Positions 116 to 12,170 of a DNA stretch of 13,191 nt are shown piece by piece. The translations under genes and the position numbers were made by a program. Below the pieces are notes generated by a model, which was not told the DNA's origin, ran no database searches, and saw only the letters and a list, made by a program, of their open reading frames with translations. Each line of letters starts with the position of its first letter. Position 1 is the stretch's first letter. The stretch spans positions 12,456 to 25,646 of the forward strand of contig DCTK01000088.1 in assembly GCA_002329575.1 (NCBI GenBank), given 5' to 3'. The stretch comes from Sutterella sp. UBA1442 (lineage in GTDB: Bacteria; Pseudomonadota; Gammaproteobacteria; Burkholderiales; Burkholderiaceae_F).

Positions 116-1174
116 TTAGTTGTCTTTTTTCTTCTTTTTAGAGTCTTTGTCTTTTGTTTTTTCTTTGAGCATAGCCGTGAATCGATTATCGACATTAGCG
201 CGAGAGAGCACTAATGGGTCAACTTTGCCGATACGGTCAAGATCACGACCTTCATAATCAATCATCGAGAGAACGTATCGCATGGCGTTAAGGCGTGCGC
301 GCATCTTGTCATCGCTCTTAACCACAATCCAGGGGCTCGTGTTCGTATTGGTTGAGAAGAACATGACCTCGGCGGCTCGGGAATAGTCATCCCATTTGTC
401 TAAAGAGGCAATGTCAATCGGGGAGAGTTTCCAGCGTTTTAACGGATCAATGCGACGTTCTTTGAAGCGACGACGTTGTTCTTCCTGGGAAACCGACAGC
501 CAGAACTTAATCAAGATAGTGTCCGAGCGAATCAGATTTTCTTCAAAACCCGGGCATTCACGCAAGAATTCCACATATTGATCGTCCGTGCAAAAGCCCA
601 TCACGCGTTCAACACCGGCGCGGTTGTACCACGAACGGTCAAATAAAACGATTTCACCGGGGCTAGGCAGATGAGCAACATAGCGTTGGAAATACCATTG
701 TCCCTTTTCTTGTTCGTTGGGTTTTGGTAAGGCTGCAACGCGGCAACCGCGAGGATTCATGTTTTCCATAAAGGTGCGGATCGTGCCGCCCTTGCCGGCT
801 GCGTCTCGACCTTCAAAGATAATCATCACTTTGCGACCGGTTTCTTTGACCCATTTCTGAAGTTTCAATAGCTCAACTTGAAGCGCATATTTTTCAAGGT
901 TGTAGCGCTTTTTATTCATGTTGTGCTTGTAGGGATAGTCGGCTTTTTCCCAATTTTCAACGAGTTCATCGTCATCACCTTCACCGGGAGCGGGGCCAAC
1001 GCTCAGCTCTGCTTCTTTTGTCAAGAGTTTGAGAATACGCAAGCGATCAAACGGAGGCTCTTTTTCCAAGATAGAGCGCAACGCTTCGGTTTGAGCGTGA
1101 AGTTCTTGATCGGACAGAATATTGCCTTTGGTTTCAGTTTGATTTTCTGAGCGAGATTTCTTTCTTGTTGTCAT
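116..1174 (-). CDS. ppk2: Polyphosphate kinase 2 family protein
   Basis: A 352-residue PPK2-family kinase, which transfers phosphate between polyphosphate and nucleoside diphosphates or monophosphates in the cytoplasm. Visible motifs are a Walker A loop EGRDAAGKGG (about 121-130), the Walker B-like FDRSWYNRAGVE (178-189), and a basic lid containing RRRFKERRIDPLKRWK (about 234-249). The length fits single-domain PPK2 proteins with an N-terminal extension; the direction of the reaction (NTP synthesis or polyphosphate synthesis) cannot be told from sequence. The C-terminus is a lysine-rich acidic/serine tail, DKDSKKKKKDN. The ATG at 1172-1174 has an AAGGA element about 11 bp upstream. It follows phoR on the same strand but is separated from it by a terminator, so it probably has its own promoter, although no clear one was seen. 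Its place beside the Pho genes fits a role in phosphate storage or use. Confidence 0.93.
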   Translation of the reverse strand: MTTRKKSRSENQTETKGNILSDQELHAQTEALRSILEKEPPFDRLRILKLLTKEAELSVGPAPGEGDDDELVENWEKADYPYKHNMNKKRYNLEKYALQVELLKLQKWVKETGRKVMIIFEGRDAAGKGGTIRTFMENMNPRGCRVAALPKPNEQEKGQWYFQRYVAHLPSPGEIVLFDRSWYNRAGVERVMGFCTDDQYVEFLRECPGFEENLIRSDTILIKFWLSVSQEEQRRRFKERRIDPLKRWKLSPIDIASLDKWDDYSRAAEVMFFSTNTNTSPWIVVKSDDKMRARLNAMRYVLSMIDYEGRDLDRIGKVDPLVLSRANVDNRFTAMLKEKTKDKDSKKKKKDN

Positions 1175-1233
1175 GATGATTGAATTCCTTTTATCAGTGC
1201 GTATCCAACCAATGTACTACCATTTATCCCAAC

Positions 1234-1257
1234 AAAAAAGGCCTCGCGGCCTTTGTT
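1234..1257 (-). terminator. Rho-independent terminator of phoR
   Basis: Arms AAAGGCC (1237-1243) and GGCCTTT (1248-1254) surround the tetraloop TCGC. Read on the minus strand, the GC-rich stem is followed by a run of T (from the A run at 1234-1239). It lies about 25 bp beyond the phoR stop codon and closes the pstB-phoU-phoB-phoR unit before ppk2. Confidence 0.82.
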
Positions 1258-1280
1258 GTTGAGAAATGTATGACAGAAAG

Positions 1281-2525
1281 TTAATCAATGACATTTTCCG
1301 GTGCAAAGATAAGGCTGAAAGTTGAGCCTTTTCCGGGTTCTGAATCGATCTTTAATTGGCATTGATGGCGGATGGCAACGTGCTTGACAATAGCAAGTCC
1401 TAGACCCGTACCGCCCGTATCACGAGAGCGGCTCTTATCGACGCGGTAAAAGCGCTCAGTCAAGCGAGGAATATCTTGCGGCGCAATGCCAATACCGGTG
1501 TCAGCCACAGAGAACACCGCAGATCCATCATCGTTGACTCGCCAACTGATGTCAATCTTGCCGCCTTCAGGCGTGTAGCGTATAGCGTTACTGACAAGAT
1601 TCAAGCAGGCGCTTTTGATCTCATCGACAAAGCCCATCACGGCTTTTTGTGTCGTGATATCGGTGTTGATGGTGTGTCTGCCATTTGAAAGCATCACTGC
1701 GTCTTCGGCTAAAGCCGCCACAAGCTTACTCATGTTGACAACCTCTGGCAGATCGTTTTTGGTGTCGTCCTTATTTTCGAGGCGAGAGAGCGAAAGCAAG
1801 TCATTGACTAGATTGTGCATACGAGAAGCTTCCGCTTGCATGAGTTCAAGTTGCTCTCTGATAATTTTGGGATCGATGTTGTCGTCGGCCAAAATCATGT
1901 CCAAGAAGCCTCGAATAACGGTCAAGGGAGTGCGAAGTTCGTGGCTGACATTGGCGACGAAGTCTTTACGCATCTGTTCGATACGGCGTTGTTCGGTCAC
2001 ATCACGCGTTGTCACGATAAAGTGGGTTTGGTCTGCAACGACAGCCGAGAGAGATAAAATGCCGCCCGTGAGTTTTGACGTCACCTCGATGGGCTTGGCA
2101 AAGTCGCCGGCTTCGAGATAGCTGACCAATGCTTCATTAGAGAAAACTTCTCGCAGGCCTTTACCCAAATGTTCCGTTAATTTGATTCCAAGGTGACGTT
2201 CTGCGGCAGGGTTACACCATTCCAACGTGTTACCTTGCCTGAAAAGTACAACGCCTTCGGGCAAAGCAGATAATGACAAGCGATAACGATCGATACGGGC
2301 CGTGTAGCGATTTTGTGTTTGGCGATAATCAATGGCCTCGGCCACATCCACCCAATGCACGGAAAGATTGAAAACAATGTATACGACCAAAAGTGCAAGC
2401 GCAGCCAACGTGACGCCCATTGCCACTATAAGCGGACTGGACAAGAACATCACAGTGGCAAGGATCGCAACAAGAGTAAGGCCTAACAAACAGCGCTGCT
2501 TGGCATTTAAATCTTTAGCCGGCAT
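1281..2525 (-). CDS. phoR: Phosphate regulon sensor histidine kinase PhoR
   Basis: A 414-residue membrane sensor kinase that, with PhoB, controls the phosphate-starvation response. Two hydrophobic segments (about 13-30 and 32-54) anchor it, with almost no periplasmic loop between them, as in PhoR, which senses through the Pst transporter and PhoU and not through an external ligand domain. A PAS-like region (about 80-175) follows. The HisKA domain carries FVANVSHELRTP with phospho-acceptor His195. The HATPase domain shows the N box NLVSNAIRYTPEGG (from 309), G1 DTGIGI (342-347) and G2 GGTGLGLAIVKH (371-382). It starts 24 bp after phoB and is transcribed with it. The ATG at 2523-2525 has a GGAGG-type site in the phoB-phoR gap. 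It ends in TAA just before a terminator. Confidence 0.95.
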   Translation of the reverse strand: MPAKDLNAKQRCLLGLTLVAILATVMFLSSPLIVAMGVTLAALALLVVYIVFNLSVHWVDVAEAIDYRQTQNRYTARIDRYRLSLSALPEGVVLFRQGNTLEWCNPAAERHLGIKLTEHLGKGLREVFSNEALVSYLEAGDFAKPIEVTSKLTGGILSLSAVVADQTHFIVTTRDVTEQRRIEQMRKDFVANVSHELRTPLTVIRGFLDMILADDNIDPKIIREQLELMQAEASRMHNLVNDLLSLSRLENKDDTKNDLPEVVNMSKLVAALAEDAVMLSNGRHTINTDITTQKAVMGFVDEIKSACLNLVSNAIRYTPEGGKIDISWRVNDDGSAVFSVADTGIGIAPQDIPRLTERFYRVDKSRSRDTGGTGLGLAIVKHVAIRHQCQLKIDSEPGKGSTFSLIFAPENVID

Positions 2526-2549
2526 GGCTAGCCCTCCAAGGCAAAAGTA

Positions 2550-3266
2550 CTACTCGACGTGGGCTCGATAGCCCAAACCGCGAACGGTTTGCAGGAGGTT
2601 TTCAGCCTTTGTGCCTTGTAGTTGTTTGCGCAAACGAAGCATGTGCACGTCAACTGTCCGTTCATCGACATTGGCATTGTCCCAGACGAGCTGCAAAAGC
2701 ATTTCGCGACTGTAGACGCGCTCGGGATTCTTTGCAAACACCAAGAGTAGCTTGAATTCTTTAGCCGAGAGTGACAGAGGCACATCATCGACTTTGGCTT
2801 CAAAGCTTGACTCATTCATGGTCAAAGGTCCGCACACAACTACATCATCGGTTCCGCCCCTATTTTGACTTTGAATGCGATAGCGACGAAGCACGGCCTG
2901 AATGCGCGCTATTAACTCACGAGGCATGAACGGCTTGACAACATAGTCATCGGCCCCGGCGTTAAGTCCTTTAACGCGATCCGATTCACTGCCACGAGCC
3001 GTGAGCATAATCACCGGCAGATCCTTCGTTTTGGGATCGGCGTGTAACTTCTCTAACCACTCAACACCCGAGAGCTCAGGGAGCATGTAGTCGAGCAAAA
3101 CCAAGTCAGGGCGGTTTTCTTCGACAATTCGCTGAGCCGTCACGGCGCTGTCGGTGCACTCGACTTCAAAGCCAGCGCCTGCGCAAGCAAAAGAAATCAG
3201 TGTGCGAATCGGCGCTTCGTCTTCAACAATCAAGATGCGGGCAGATTTAATTTCGTTGTCGCTCAT
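2550..3266 (-). CDS. phoB: Phosphate regulon response regulator PhoB
   Basis: A 238-residue OmpR/PhoB-type transcription factor. The receiver domain (about 10-125) has the acidic pocket E15/D16, phospho-acceptor Asp59 in LVLLDYMLPE, Thr89 and Lys111 in VVKPFMP. The C-terminal winged helix (about 140-238) ends with the family pattern DERTVDVHMLRLRKQL...TVRGLGYR. Phosphorylated PhoB binds Pho boxes as tandem dimers, and one lies upstream of pstB in this window. The ATG at 3264-3266 is preceded by a perfect AGGAGG four bases upstream. It lies between phoU (88-bp gap with a hairpin) and phoR (24-bp gap). The stop is TAG, and the frame then runs open straight into phoR. Confidence 0.96.
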   Translation of the reverse strand: MSDNEIKSARILIVEDEAPIRTLISFACAGAGFEVECTDSAVTAQRIVEENRPDLVLLDYMLPELSGVEWLEKLHADPKTKDLPVIMLTARGSESDRVKGLNAGADDYVVKPFMPRELIARIQAVLRRYRIQSQNRGGTDDVVVCGPLTMNESSFEAKVDDVPLSLSAKEFKLLLVFAKNPERVYSREMLLQLVWDNANVDERTVDVHMLRLRKQLQGTKAENLLQTVRGLGYRAHVE

Positions 3267-3324
3267 GCGACCTCCTGAAAAGTCCTATATTCATGATAAG
3301 CGAAAATATGTGCACCAAAGGATA

Positions 3325-3349
3325 AACCTTCGTCTATTTGACGAAGGTT
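3325..3349 (-). terminator. Hairpin between phoU and phoB (weak terminator or attenuator)
   Basis: Arms AACCTTCGTC (3325-3334) and GACGAAGGTT (3340-3349) form a perfect 10-bp stem with a five-base loop, starting 5 bp after the phoU stop. Read on the minus strand the stem is followed only by GTTTATCC, a poor T tract. It may reduce, but probably does not abolish, readthrough from pstB-phoU into phoB-phoR; an RNA-processing or stabilising role is equally possible. Confidence 0.55.
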
Positions 3350-3354
3350 AATTA

Positions 3355-4065
3355 TCACGGCAAATTGGCTAGATTTTCAGGTAACGCATCAAGCCTCAAA
3401 TGACGAATATCCTCACCGTCGAGCACAAAAATGACATGCTCGGCAATGTTGGTGGCATGGTCGCCGAGTCGTTCATAGCATTTCAGAATGTTCAAACATG
3501 AGAGCGCGACATCGGTTTTTTCAGGGTGTTGCTGTAAGAACTTTGTGATTTCCTTAATGCCGCTGTGGAAACACTGATCCACTTCTTTATCGGCACGAAG
3601 TGTGTTCACTGCGGCCGTTTCGCTCATATTTTTGAGCGCTAACATTGCCATGTTAACCACTTTGGTGCTCGACTCTACGATGCCAGAGTCGGCAACAATT
3701 TTGATCAATTCATCAGGAACTTGAGCCTTACATTCACGTGCGATGTTGCGGGCCTGGTCACCCATACGCTCAAAGTCGGTGGACATTTTTGCCATCCCGA
3801 ATACTAAGCGCAAGTCTTTGGCAGCCGGCTGATGCTTAGCAATCAAAAGCGTGATGGCGCGGTCAGTGGAGACTTCCAAGGCGTTAATGGCAGAGTCGCG
3901 ATCTCGAACGCTTTGGGCTAAATCAATGTCTCCGTTGCGGAAAGCTTTCCCGGCGTTGGTAATTTGTTCCAGGACCAGATCGCCCATGCCGTAGAGCAAG
4001 TGTCGTAATTCGTCCAAATCTTCATCAAACTGGTGCACCAAATGCGATTGTGCAGACATAATCAT
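3355..4065 (-). CDS. phoU: Phosphate transport system regulator PhoU
   Basis: A 236-residue PhoU, a cytoplasmic adaptor between the Pst transporter and PhoR that keeps the Pho regulon off when phosphate is plentiful. It consists of two similar three-helix bundles, each with the family's metal-binding signature: FERMGDQARNIA (about 98-109) and YERLGDHATNIAEH (about 197-210). The length matches the family. ATG at 4063-4065 is chosen because AGGAG lies 8 bp upstream; an internal ATG two codons later is also possible. It begins 18 bp after pstB, so the two are co-transcribed. It ends in TGA right before the phoU-phoB hairpin. Confidence 0.95.
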   Translation of the reverse strand: MIMSAQSHLVHQFDEDLDELRHLLYGMGDLVLEQITNAGKAFRNGDIDLAQSVRDRDSAINALEVSTDRAITLLIAKHQPAAKDLRLVFGMAKMSTDFERMGDQARNIARECKAQVPDELIKIVADSGIVESSTKVVNMAMLALKNMSETAAVNTLRADKEVDQCFHSGIKEITKFLQQHPEKTDVALSCLNILKCYERLGDHATNIAEHVIFVLDGEDIRHLRLDALPENLANLP

Positions 4066-4083
4066 TTTTTAATCTCCTGCAGA

Positions 4084-4854
4084 TTAACCGAAGCGACCCG
4101 TAATGTAGTCTTCCGTCTCTTTACGCGTGGGCTTGGTAAACATGACTTCCGTGGTACCGAATTCGATAAGTTCGCCCAAATACATGTAAGCGGTAAAGTC
4201 GGAAATACGAGCGGCTTGTTGCATGCTGTGAGTAACGATAACCACCGTGTAGTCTTTCTTTAACTCGTCAATTAAGTTTTCGATCTTAGCGGTAGAAATC
4301 GGGTCAAGAGCCGAGCAGGGTTCATCGAGTAAGAGCACTTCAGGTTTGACCGCAATGGCGCGGGCAATACATAAGCGCTGTTGTTGACCGCCGGAGAGTG
4401 CGAAGCCGGATTCTTGCAACTTGTCCTTAACATCACTCCAAAGGGCGGCTTGACGAAGAGCCCATTCGACACGGTCATCTAATTCTGATTTCGGGAGTTT
4501 TTCAAACAAGCGTACTCCGTAGGCGATGTTGTCATAGATCGACATCGGGAAGGGGGTCGGTCGTTGGAACACCATACCGACCTTAGAGCGCAAGCGATCA
4601 ACGCCTTCGGTTTTGGTCACAATGTTTTCGCCGTCGAGCCAAATTTCACCCTCGGCGCGTTGCTCCGGATAGAGCTCATACATGCGGTTAAAGGTGCGCA
4701 GTAGCGTGGACTTGCCGCAGCCCGACGGGCCGATGAACGCCGTCACTTTATTTTCAGCAATCGACAAGTTGATATTTTTAAGCGCGTGAAAAGCGCCGTA
4801 GTAGAAATTGAAGTTTTTGACTTCAAGTTTAGTCGGTGCAGTCAATTCAGACAT
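4084..4854 (-). CDS. pstB: Phosphate ABC transporter ATP-binding protein PstB
   Basis: A 256-residue ATPase that powers high-affinity phosphate import through the PstC/PstA membrane channel. All ABC motifs are present: Walker [10 protein letters not shown] (42-50), Q-loop Gln97 in [11 protein letters not shown] (PstB-typical), signature LSGGQQQR (153-160), Walker B VLLLDEP (173-179) followed by the PstB-typical CSALDP, and H-loop His209 in [10 protein letters not shown]. The ATG at 4852-4854 has GAGGAG 8 bp upstream. It is the first gene of this unit and has a Pho box in front. The partner genes pstS, pstC and pstA, which normally precede pstB, are absent; the next gene upstream is divergent and unrelated. 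The partners must lie elsewhere if the transporter is complete. Confidence 0.96.
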
Positions 4855-8530: not shown

Positions 8531-10585
8531 TTAGTGTAAACGCATCCCGGGTTCGGCACCGGTCTGAGGTTCAAGGATATAGAGTCCTTTTTTCTCCGAG
8601 GCGTCACTGGCTGACAAAAGCATGCCTTCACTGACGCCAAAGCGCATCTTGCGAGGAGCAAGGTTGGCAATGACGACAGTAAGTTTGCCTTCCAAGTCCT
8701 TCGGATCATACCAAGCTTTAATACCCGAGAAGATATTGCGCGTACGTCCTTCGCCGATATCGACCGTCAAACGCAAAAGCTTGTCAGAACCTTCAACGGC
8801 CTCACATTTCACGATCTTGGCAACCCGAAGATCGAGTTTGTTAAAGTCATCAATCGTGACCGTTTCGGCGATGGCTTCGCCACCTGGCAACGGTTTTTCT
8901 TCGGGCTTGACTTCCGGCGCGCCCGGTACCAGTGCATCGAGTTGCTTGATATCGGCACGTTGCATTAAGTGCTTGAAGGCAGAAATCGGAGATTCGGGGG
9001 ATAACACGCGATCGGCCGTATCCCAGGTGAGTTCTCCGCAATTTAAGAATGCCTCAACATTGGCAGCTGTTGCCGGCAACACGGGCTTGAGCATCAAGGT
9101 CAAAAGACGGAATGCTTCAAGTGCAACGGAGCAAACGCGGTGCAAATCGGTCTTCTTATCTTCAGACTTGGCCAATTCCCAAGGTTTTTCACGATCAACG
9201 TATTCGTTAACAACATCGGTCAAGTCCATGACGATGCGAAGCGCCTTGGCATATTCGCGATCATTGAAAAGCGAGGCGACTTCGGCCACTTTGTCGCGAA
9301 GCGTGGTGACGATGGCATCATCGGCAATACCGTCGGCGACACGACCTTCGAAACGCTTGAAAATGAATCCGGCGGCACGGCTGGCGATGTTGACGTATTT
9401 ACCGATCAAATCGGAATTCACACGAGCCAAGAAGTCGTTTTTGCTGAAGTCGACGTCATCATTGGTGCGGCCCATCTTGGCGGCCAAGTAGTAGCGCAGC
9501 CATTCAGGGTTCATGCCCAGCTCCAAGTATTTCAAGGGGCTGATACCCGTGCCGCGGCTCTTACTCATTTTGCGACCGTCAACCGTCATGAAGCCGTGCA
9601 CAAAGACGTTATCGGGCACTCGGTACGGTTGACCGGCAAAGTGAAGCATGGCAGGCCAGAAAAGCGTGTGGAAGTACACGATATCTTTGCCGATAAAGTG
9701 AATTTGTTCGGTCTTTTCTTCGCTGAGGAATTTCCAGAAATCAAAACCAACTTTGGCAGCGTAGTTCTTCAAACTGGCCAAGTAGCCTACCGGGGCATCT
9801 AACCACACGTAGAAATACTTGCCCGGAGCATCAGGAATGGGGATGCCGAAGTAAGGGGCATCACGAGAGATATCCCAGTCGCCTAATTTACCGTCAGCCA
9901 ACCATTCTTCGTCCTTGGCGCGAATTTCCGGTTGAACACGATCGACACCGCTTTTGCCTTGACCGTGAACCCAGTCACGAAGGAAGGCCACGCAGGCCGG
10001 ATCCGACAAGCGGAAGAAATAGTGCGTCGAGGTGCGAAGTTCGGGCTTGGCACCGGATAAGGCCGAGAAGGGATTAATGAGCTCGGTGGGCGAATAAACG
10101 GCACCGCATTTTTCACAGTTGTCGCCCTATTGGTCTTCGGCGCCACACTTAGGACACGTCCCCTTGATGAAACGGTCAGCCAAGAACATTTCTTTGACCG
10201 GATCGTAGAACTGTTCGATGTCTTTTGTATAAATCAAACCGGCGGCTTTTAAGCGACGGTAGATGTCTTGAGACAGTTCAACGTTTTCTTCGCTGTCGGT
10301 CGAGTACCAGTGGTCGAATTTGATGTGAAAGCCGTCCAAGTATTGTTTGCGACCGGCGGCAATGCGTGCCACGAATTCCTGTGGAGTGATGCCTTCTTTT
10401 TGAGCAGCAATCATCATCGGTGCGCCGTGTGTATCGTCAGCGCCGACAAAGTGTACGGTGTGACCGTACATGCGTTGCGCACGCACCCAGATGTCGGCTT
10501 GAATGTATTCCATAATATGACCAATATGGAAATGCCCGTTAGCATAGGGCAAAGCGGTCGTGACGAAAATTTGGCGTTTTTGCAT
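8531..10585 (-). CDS. metG: Methionine-tRNA ligase, interrupted by one in-frame TAG
   Basis: Charges tRNA-Met with methionine in the cytoplasm and is essential for translation. The frame spans 684 codons, close to the usual length of long bacterial MetRS. Domains in order: Rossmann fold with HFHIGH (18-23); zinc knuckle CPKC (144-147) and CEKC (157-160); KMSKS (339-343); anticodon-binding helices; and a C-terminal EMAP/Trbp111-like tRNA-binding domain (about 577-684, starting [16 protein letters not shown]). Codon 153 is TAG (10127-10129), between AEDQ and GDNCEKC, where the family has tyrosine (DQYGDNC). No frameshift is present; both sides continue in register. As written, translation gives a 152-residue fragment lacking KMSKS and the anticodon domain. 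The start at 10585 ([17 protein letters not shown]) matches the family. An in-frame start at 10648 would add 21 hydrophobic residues and lies upstream of the likely promoter. A sequencing error is the simplest explanation. Confidence 0.93.
10127..10129 (-). other. metG: In-frame amber codon inside metG
   Basis: The plus strand reads CTA, giving TAG on the coding strand at codon 153. A single base change at 10127 (C to G or A on the plus strand) would restore TAC or TAT, the tyrosine expected in the conserved DQYGDNC segment. The flanking codons on both sides match the family. Confidence 0.95.
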
Positions 10586-10637: not shown

Positions 10638-11042
10638 AATGCAATCATGACTTAGCTGAGCAAAAGTCGCTATAGCAGGGTTAATCGTTCAAAGGCTCGA
10701 AGAACGCTGAACGAGAAGATTGGTTTTGAAAATTTCGACCCCGTTGTTTTGTTCGTATTTAGGTACTGGTGATATAAAGTAGATGGTAAAAGTTGGTTGG
10801 CTATTGAAACAGTAACTATGACAGAAAGCTTTTATTCGCAAAGTACCTTCCCCACGCAGATATGAGGTATTTTCAACATTATGTTCGAAAAAAAGACTGA
10901 TGAAGCCCAAAAGTAAAATGAAAGTAAGCACCGGTGATAAATGAGTTATAACAACGTTGTAATTCCGGCTATGTACCTGTCCAATGATAGGTGTTTTGAT
11001 TTTGTTTCAGGGATGATAGTTTTGAAATTAGTCCCTTTTAGC

Positions 11043-11072
11043 TTGAGCTTAAACGCAAAAAATCGGACAATA
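11043..11072 (+). promoter_or_regulatory. Weak candidate promoter of apbC
   Basis: TTGAGC (11043-11048) and ACAATA (11067-11072) are separated by 18 bp. Both are partial matches to the sigma-70 elements. The position, about 28 bp before the GTG start and just upstream of an AGGAG ribosome site, is suitable. Confidence 0.35.
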
Positions 11073-11099
11073 TGCTTCTACGTTATCCAGGAGCATACA

Positions 11100-12170
11100 G
11101 TGAATACTAAAGAACAAATTCTCGAAATTTTAAAAACAGTCGTTGATCCGCGACTCGGTTGCGATTACGTTTCTGCACGCATGGTTAAGGTATCTGACGA
11201 TGCTCAAGAGGCGCAAATTCTTTTGGGCTATCCGGCCAAAAACGTGATTGATGAAGTCAGAGCACAGGTTCAGGCCGCTTTCGACAAAGCTGGTCTTGTC
11301 GTTAAATTGGATGTGAAGCAACACATTGTGGCGCATGCCGTGCAACGCACTTTAAAGGTCTTGCCTAACGTTAAAAATATCATTGCAGTTGCCAGTGGCA
11401 AAGGCGGTGTGGGTAAAAGCACGGTTGCGGCTAATTTGGCATTGGCATTGTCTGCTCAAGGAGCCAAGGTTGGTGTGTTGGACGCTGATATTTACGGACC
11501 GAGTCAACCGATGATGTTGGGTGCTCAAGGTCGTCCCATCTCCAATGACGGTCAAAACATGTTTCCGGTCGTATCCCTCGGTCTGGAGATCAATTCCATC
11601 GGTTTTCTCATTGATGCCGATGAACCGATGATTTGGCGCGGTCCTTTGGTTGCGCAAGCCTTAACGCAACTTTTAATGCAAACCAAATGGGGCGATTTGG
11701 ACTATTTGGTTATTGATATGCCGCCGGGTACGGGGGATATTCAATTAACGCTTTCTCAAACTGTGCCGGTGACCGGCGCGGTGATCGTGACCACGCCGCA
11801 AGACATTGCGCTTTTGGATGCCCAAAAAGGCCTTCGCATGTTCAATAAAGTCAACGTTCCCGTCTTGGGTGTTGTGGAAAACATGGCGATGTTTGTTTGT
11901 CCGAAGTGCGGTCATTTGGAACATATTTTTGGTCAAGGTGGCGCTGAGCGATTAAGTCGCACCTATGGGTGTGAAGTATTGGGGCACTTGCCGTTACAGA
12001 CGTCCATTCGTGAGAAAGCGGACTCGGGAGAACCGACGGTAATTGGCGAGCCTGAGAGCGAAGCCGCGAAGATTTATCGCGATATCGCCATTAAGGCGGC
12101 CTGTGCCATTGCAAAAACGGCCAAGGACATGAGTTTGAAGATGCCGACCGTGAAGGTGGAGAAGAACTAA
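11100..12170 (+). CDS. apbC: Fe-S cluster carrier ATPase ApbC/Mrp (NBP35 family)
   Basis: A 356-residue P-loop ATPase that binds and delivers iron-sulfur clusters in the cytoplasm. The N-terminal MIP18/DUF59-like domain (about 1-80) is followed by the NTPase domain: deviant Walker A SGKGGVGKST (99-108), LDADIYGPSQP (117-127), DMPPGTGD (206-213), and the CPKC pair Cys257/Cys260 in MFVCPKCGH that binds a bridging cluster in the dimer. The length fits ApbC. The start is the GTG at 11100, because AGGAG sits 6 bp upstream at 11089-11093 and the protein then begins NTKEQILEILKTVVDP, as in the family. The open frame reaches back to 10941, but that part is AT-rich and unlike the family. It is followed one base later by the hydrolase gene, so the two are translationally coupled. 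Confidence 0.93.
   Translation: MNTKEQILEILKTVVDPRLGCDYVSARMVKVSDDAQEAQILLGYPAKNVIDEVRAQVQAAFDKAGLVVKLDVKQHIVAHAVQRTLKVLPNVKNIIAVASGKGGVGKSTVAANLALALSAQGAKVGVLDADIYGPSQPMMLGAQGRPISNDGQNMFPVVSLGLEINSIGFLIDADEPMIWRGPLVAQALTQLLMQTKWGDLDYLVIDMPPGTGDIQLTLSQTVPVTGAVIVTTPQDIALLDAQKGLRMFNKVNVPVLGVVENMAMFVCPKCGHLEHIFGQGGAERLSRTYGCEVLGHLPLQTSIREKADSGEPTVIGEPESEAAKIYRDIAIKAACAIAKTAKDMSLKMPTVKVEKN

Follow-up and report, generated by a model that had tools for sequence, protein, structure and literature searches.

An in-frame amber codon in metG of a metagenome-assembled genome: a probable assembly error or, failing that, a rare dead variant

The metG gene in the window, the stretch of 13,191 nucleotides analysed here, is interrupted by an in-frame TAG, for which an assembly error or a rare dead variant is the most likely explanation. 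The codon occurs in no other sequence examined, and the gene is otherwise well conserved. A consensus error, made in base calling or in the assembly of a rough metagenome-assembled genome, is the probable cause. It is also the simplest one, since the stop has been seen once, tyrosine is present in all relatives examined, the affected metG is the only one found, near-identical alleles are intact, and there is no sign of readthrough. A real codon that is read through would make an essential synthetase dependent on amber suppression despite an intact RF1. The part of the literature that was consulted contained nothing on this locus.

The metG frame and its internal stop

The window lies within contig C65 (25,646 bases) of a metagenome-assembled genome of 1,601,338 bases in 126 contigs, which is estimated to be 80.05% complete and 2.15% contaminated. 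The nearest named MetG relatives, at 83-85% identity, include those of Parasutterella secunda (Sutterellaceae, Burkholderiales), two Candidatus Aphodousia species and Burkholderiaceae. They suggest a Parasutterella-like gut dweller, the gut habitat because two of the Burkholderiaceae among them come from cattle cecum and yak rectum. Within the genus, the window's metG is 84-85% identical to six full-length copies.

In the window sequence, the plus strand CTA at positions 10127-10129 reads TAG on the minus strand. The initial annotation had described an amber codon here in an otherwise open metG, and this was confirmed: the 685 codons of the frame comprise 683 sense codons, the TAG as codon 153, and the terminal stop (Table 1). 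The translation contains HFHIGH and KMSKS, which we take to be the HIGH and KMSKS motifs, together with both zinc CxxC pairs. Read through the TAG, the frame scores 894.3 bits against NF001100, the methionine--tRNA ligase model (curated cut-off 587). Taken alone, the piece after the TAG scores 628.2 bits, and the piece before it 243.5 bits, against the same model. The C-terminal tRNA-binding domain is matched by TIGR00399 with 134.8 bits (cut-off 116.65). The frame thus has the profile score and the motifs of a MetG protein, but not its uninterrupted reading frame.

Between the two pieces exactly one NF001100 position is left unmatched, and there is no change of frame. Apart from the TAG, neither the motifs nor the domain scores of the two pieces give signs of decay. 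The annotated absence of a frameshift and of decay, with HFHIGH, KMSKS, zinc cysteines and C-terminal domain intact, is therefore borne out by the translation and the profile scores. Because the stop is a lone one and both halves are conserved to their ends, it is not a chance effect of open reading frame detection. In its domain order, signature motifs, zinc cysteines and C-terminal tRNA-binding domain the frame resembles bacterial MetG (NF001100, TIGR00398/TIGR00399). It differs by the single in-frame TAG, at a tyrosine that is kept in every relative examined.

Table 1. Features of the window, with positions counted from its first nucleotide
Feature	Position	Strand	Remarks
metG frame (methionine--tRNA ligase)	8531..10585	-	685 codons including internal TAG and terminal stop
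Internal TAG, codon 153	10127..10129	-	tyrosine in all 81 distinct relatives examined
N-terminal piece, 152 codons	10130..10585	-	HFHIGH, first zinc CxxC pair; NF001100 positions 3-153
C-terminal piece, 531 codons	8534..10126	-	second zinc CxxC pair, KMSKS, C-terminal tRNA-binding domain; NF001100 positions 155-675
Polyphosphate and phosphate-regulation cluster	116-4854	-	polyphosphate kinase 2 (TIGR03707), phoR (TIGR02966), phoU (TIGR02135), pstB (TIGR00972)
phoB-like gene	within 116-4854	-	TIGR02154, below its cut-off
apbC/Mrp frame	10941-12170	+	53-codon leader in the ORF-finder version

Codon 153 in relatives and in near-identical alleles

Among 90 compared metG loci, 88 reach the site of the TAG, and 87 of these have a tyrosine codon, the one exception being the window's own locus. 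Six loci of the genus had been fetched twice (from contigs of the same length and at the same place, with identical DNA confirmed for four), so that the comparison covers 81 distinct relatives, drawn from the best 80 of 234 candidates and from the genus and hence not every known metG. In this set tyrosine is found at the site in 81 of 81 cases, as expected from the conserved tyrosine that had been proposed for this position, and the matched frame contains no stop in any of them. The metG genes of the seven genus relatives that have the gene at or near full length are likewise without an internal stop; in the eighth (G003) only a fragment is present. The solved structure that fits best by sequence, 6wq6 (found with P0001 as the query), has tyrosine at the site as well.

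The closest comparison is with two near-identical proteins from contigs that differ from the window's contig. P0001 is a full-length protein of 705 residues, encoded on a contig of 11,460 bases. It has tyrosine at the site, and over the 705 places it has only one other difference from the window. P0121, found in a search with the N-terminal piece, is a partial protein from a contig of 824 bases, also with tyrosine at the site; one other residue differs from the window before the sequence diverges over its final four residues. P0001 and P0121 belong to 90% sequence clusters of 88 and 26 sequences, respectively. Neither of the two is thus letter for letter the window's protein, and they may come from the same sample, from another sample or from another strain. 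P0002, which like P0001 was taken from the best 120 of 7,999 matches in a protein search, is 94% identical and again has the tyrosine. Ten sequences were inspected from the search with the N-terminal piece (best 120 of 1,577 matches), and no protein ending at the TAG was among them. As a side observation, P0121 leaves the family sequence eight residues past the site, where NCEKC is followed by DRGL. A chimera at the contig end may explain this second break, which lies near the position of the TAG in an almost identical gene.

A second metG was not found in the readable part of the source genome, which is 80% complete and in part reads as N. Two different metG genes were seen in none of the eight other genomes of the genus. 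Further matches are weak (21.9 to 43.4 bits), and the frames that contain them are about 880 to 1,000 residues long. In G007, the gene consists of two overlapping pieces on contigs C113 and C59 (query positions 40-682 and 1-130), and was probably split by the assembly.

Stop codon usage, tRNA genes and the soundness of the assembly

RF1 is intact in all nine genomes of the genus, the source genome included. For 189 conserved genes with readable ends, the terminal stops are TAA in 130, TAG in 30 and TGA in 29 cases. With 30 of 189 genes ending in it, TAG is an ordinary terminator in the source genome. Two marks of suppression or recoding are therefore absent, in that RF1 has not been lost and TAG is not avoided as a terminator. 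An in-frame TAG in several conserved genes is not seen either; it is present in one of 213, namely metG, in the 726 kb surveyed of 1,601 kb.

The tRNA genes were searched for a CUA anticodon. The source genome yielded 24 tRNA matches, of which ARAGORN names 21, none with this anticodon. A further match, read by eye, is a leucine tRNA with the anticodon TAG, and another is cut by N directly after a GAA anticodon. A lower-scoring match was not accepted as a tRNA by ARAGORN. A CUA tRNA was found neither in these matches nor in the stretches taken from the source genome and two related genomes. This negative result is a weak one, because the source genome is incomplete and tRNA-Tyr itself was not found in it. 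A pattern for the tRNA-Tyr arm identified tRNA-Tyr genes (anticodon GTA) in seven of the eight other genomes of the genus, and had no match in G006 or in the source genome. One pattern match with a CTA loop, in G001 (L133), was no tRNA according to ARAGORN.

The accuracy of the assembly was assessed by comparing 726 kb of the source genome, window included, with the genes of two relatives, G001 and G008. With queries from G001, 213 frames with 74,388 residues passed all filters. Under the strict filter, and with a minimum of 20 aligned residues required on each side, the interior stops were the TAG in metG and two TGA codons in a short frame (L243), that is three stops in two frames. The metG codon was thus the only interior amber among the 213 conserved genes. 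The control genome G008 had five interior stops in three frames under the same filter (248 frames tested for breaks), namely one TAA in L207, two TGA in L208, and one TGA and one TAG in L214. By this standard the source genome has no excess of interior stops. With queries from G008 (98 frames), the metG stop was the sole interior stop in the source genome. The query that matched L243 is in our judgement no gene, because it meets TGA in the control genome (L208), too.

The outcome depends on the filters in the following way. Unfiltered, the survey had returned 7 interior stops in 138 source frames and 19 in 277 control frames, with one frame break in the control. A filter on changes at the third codon position then removed 6 source and 20 control frames taken for antisense reading, including the control break. 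This left six stops in five of 132 source frames, and 17 stops in 257 control frames. Of the six, one was the metG stop, the L150 frame accounted for a TAA and a TAG, and the remaining three lay no more than 20 residues from an alignment end. The strict filter dropped 46 frames for G001 queries on the source genome, 28 for G008 queries on the source genome, and 29 in the control. Among those lost was the L150 gene, which had passed the looser filter. This gene (L150, positions 1-1307, at a contig start) is poorly conserved, with 52% identity to a G001 frame. Its reading frame shifts, both stops lie within it, and it is decayed or badly assembled.

The reading frame is lost in 10 of the 213 conserved genes, each time with N inside the break or no more than 40 bases away, and in none of the 248 genes of the control. 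Because the G008 stretches hold no N, this comparison speaks of scaffold joins and not of single-base accuracy. The 726 kb contain 133 runs of N, of which 111 (in L140-L159 and L220-L259) are exactly two bases long and four are whole stretches. The flanks of 40 two-base runs were compared; one pair overlapped approximately and none exactly, which suggests that most of these runs are not simple unmerged overlaps. The assembly is thus rough at joins and gives no sign of many single-base faults. Since all ten breaks are at N runs and no other credible interior stop was found, it looks sound elsewhere. No scaffold join adjoins the TAG, as the window is free of N.

Explanations for the stop codon and the surrounding genes

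When a single stop interrupts an essential gene in a draft metagenome-assembled genome, comparison with near-identical alleles from other contigs and samples should come first. If the TAG is a consensus error, codon 153 would encode tyrosine in the living population, which would have an ordinary metG and make normal, full-length MetRS. The chief grounds for this reading are the near-identical alleles that lack the stop and the fact that metG is essential. The codon has much in common with the familiar single-base consensus errors of metagenome-assembled genomes, being a one-off change that affects an essential gene of a fragmented assembly with other local defects. It is unlike them in that the other defects found here lie at N runs. 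Because GG follows the TAG, the base called is identical to the two after it, a context in which phasing errors of Illumina sequencing may favour that base. A single nonsense change among 74,388 compared residues would fit a substitution error rate estimated very roughly at 1 in 10,000 bases, a figure that rests on one event, itself the reason for looking. Against an error stand the lack of N in the window, the apparently sound sequence away from N runs, and a number of interior stops that is not above the control. We nevertheless infer an error rather than a rare real allele, the two being weighed slightly closer to each other because all frame breaks sit at N runs.

A rare but real nonsense allele in a mixed population is the less likely, though still appreciable, alternative. 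In this scenario, some cells of one strain carry the TAG and the assembler picked it, the carriers being dead or dying cells, or cells with a partial rescue. The single additional residue difference in each of P0001 and P0121 shows that there is more than one version of the gene in public data. The apparent soundness of the assembly away from N runs and the estimated contamination of the genome would also fit. MetRS is essential, though, so a null metG should vanish at once, and the assembly yielded only one version of the gene.

Suppression of the amber codon by a tRNA with a CUA anticodon, whether tyrosine-inserting or not, with MetRS made by readthrough, is improbable. The frame past the TAG is intact to its end, and a suppressor could be in the missing part of the tRNA set, in which no tRNA-Tyr was found. 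Phages and hosts with amber recoding or suppression translate TAG as an amino acid, and the window resembles them in having the codon in frame and conserved sequence downstream. It is unlike them because RF1 is present, TAG terminates normally, no CUA tRNA was found, and there is no general pattern of in-frame TAG; in addition, the nearest alleles have tyrosine. The narrower proposal, that a Parasutterella-like bacterium makes its MetRS only by reading amber as tyrosine, with the suppressor tRNA encoded in the missing part of the genome, is more improbable still. If true, methionine charging, and hence all protein synthesis, would hang on that tRNA.

Even less credence can be given to a second, intact metG elsewhere, with the window copy newly dead. 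The incompleteness of the genome and its stretches of N leave space for such a gene, but two different metG genes were seen neither in the source genome nor in its eight relatives, with the caveat of the overlapping pieces in G007 and the fragment in G003. Least credible of all is a split MetRS, in which translation would start again past the TAG and the two resulting chains would assemble through the zinc domain. Both halves are conserved, and split class I synthetases exist in nature; E. coli MetRS has reportedly been split artificially. However, the first ATG, GTG or TTG past the TAG comes only at codon 193, 40 codons later, and no ribosome-binding site is obvious there. A chain from this codon would be without the second zinc CxxC pair. 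The codons skipped in this way show no drift, their residues being those of P0001, and the 81 relatives have no stop in the matched frame. The order given in the initial annotation, error before strain variant, tyrosine-inserting suppression and second metG, is supported by the near-identical intact alleles, by RF1, and by the failure to see a second metG or a CUA tRNA.

Elsewhere in the window, metG is accompanied by the polyphosphate and phosphate-regulation genes listed in Table 1. The apbC/Mrp gene likelier starts with the GTG at position 11100, behind AGGAG, than with the leader.
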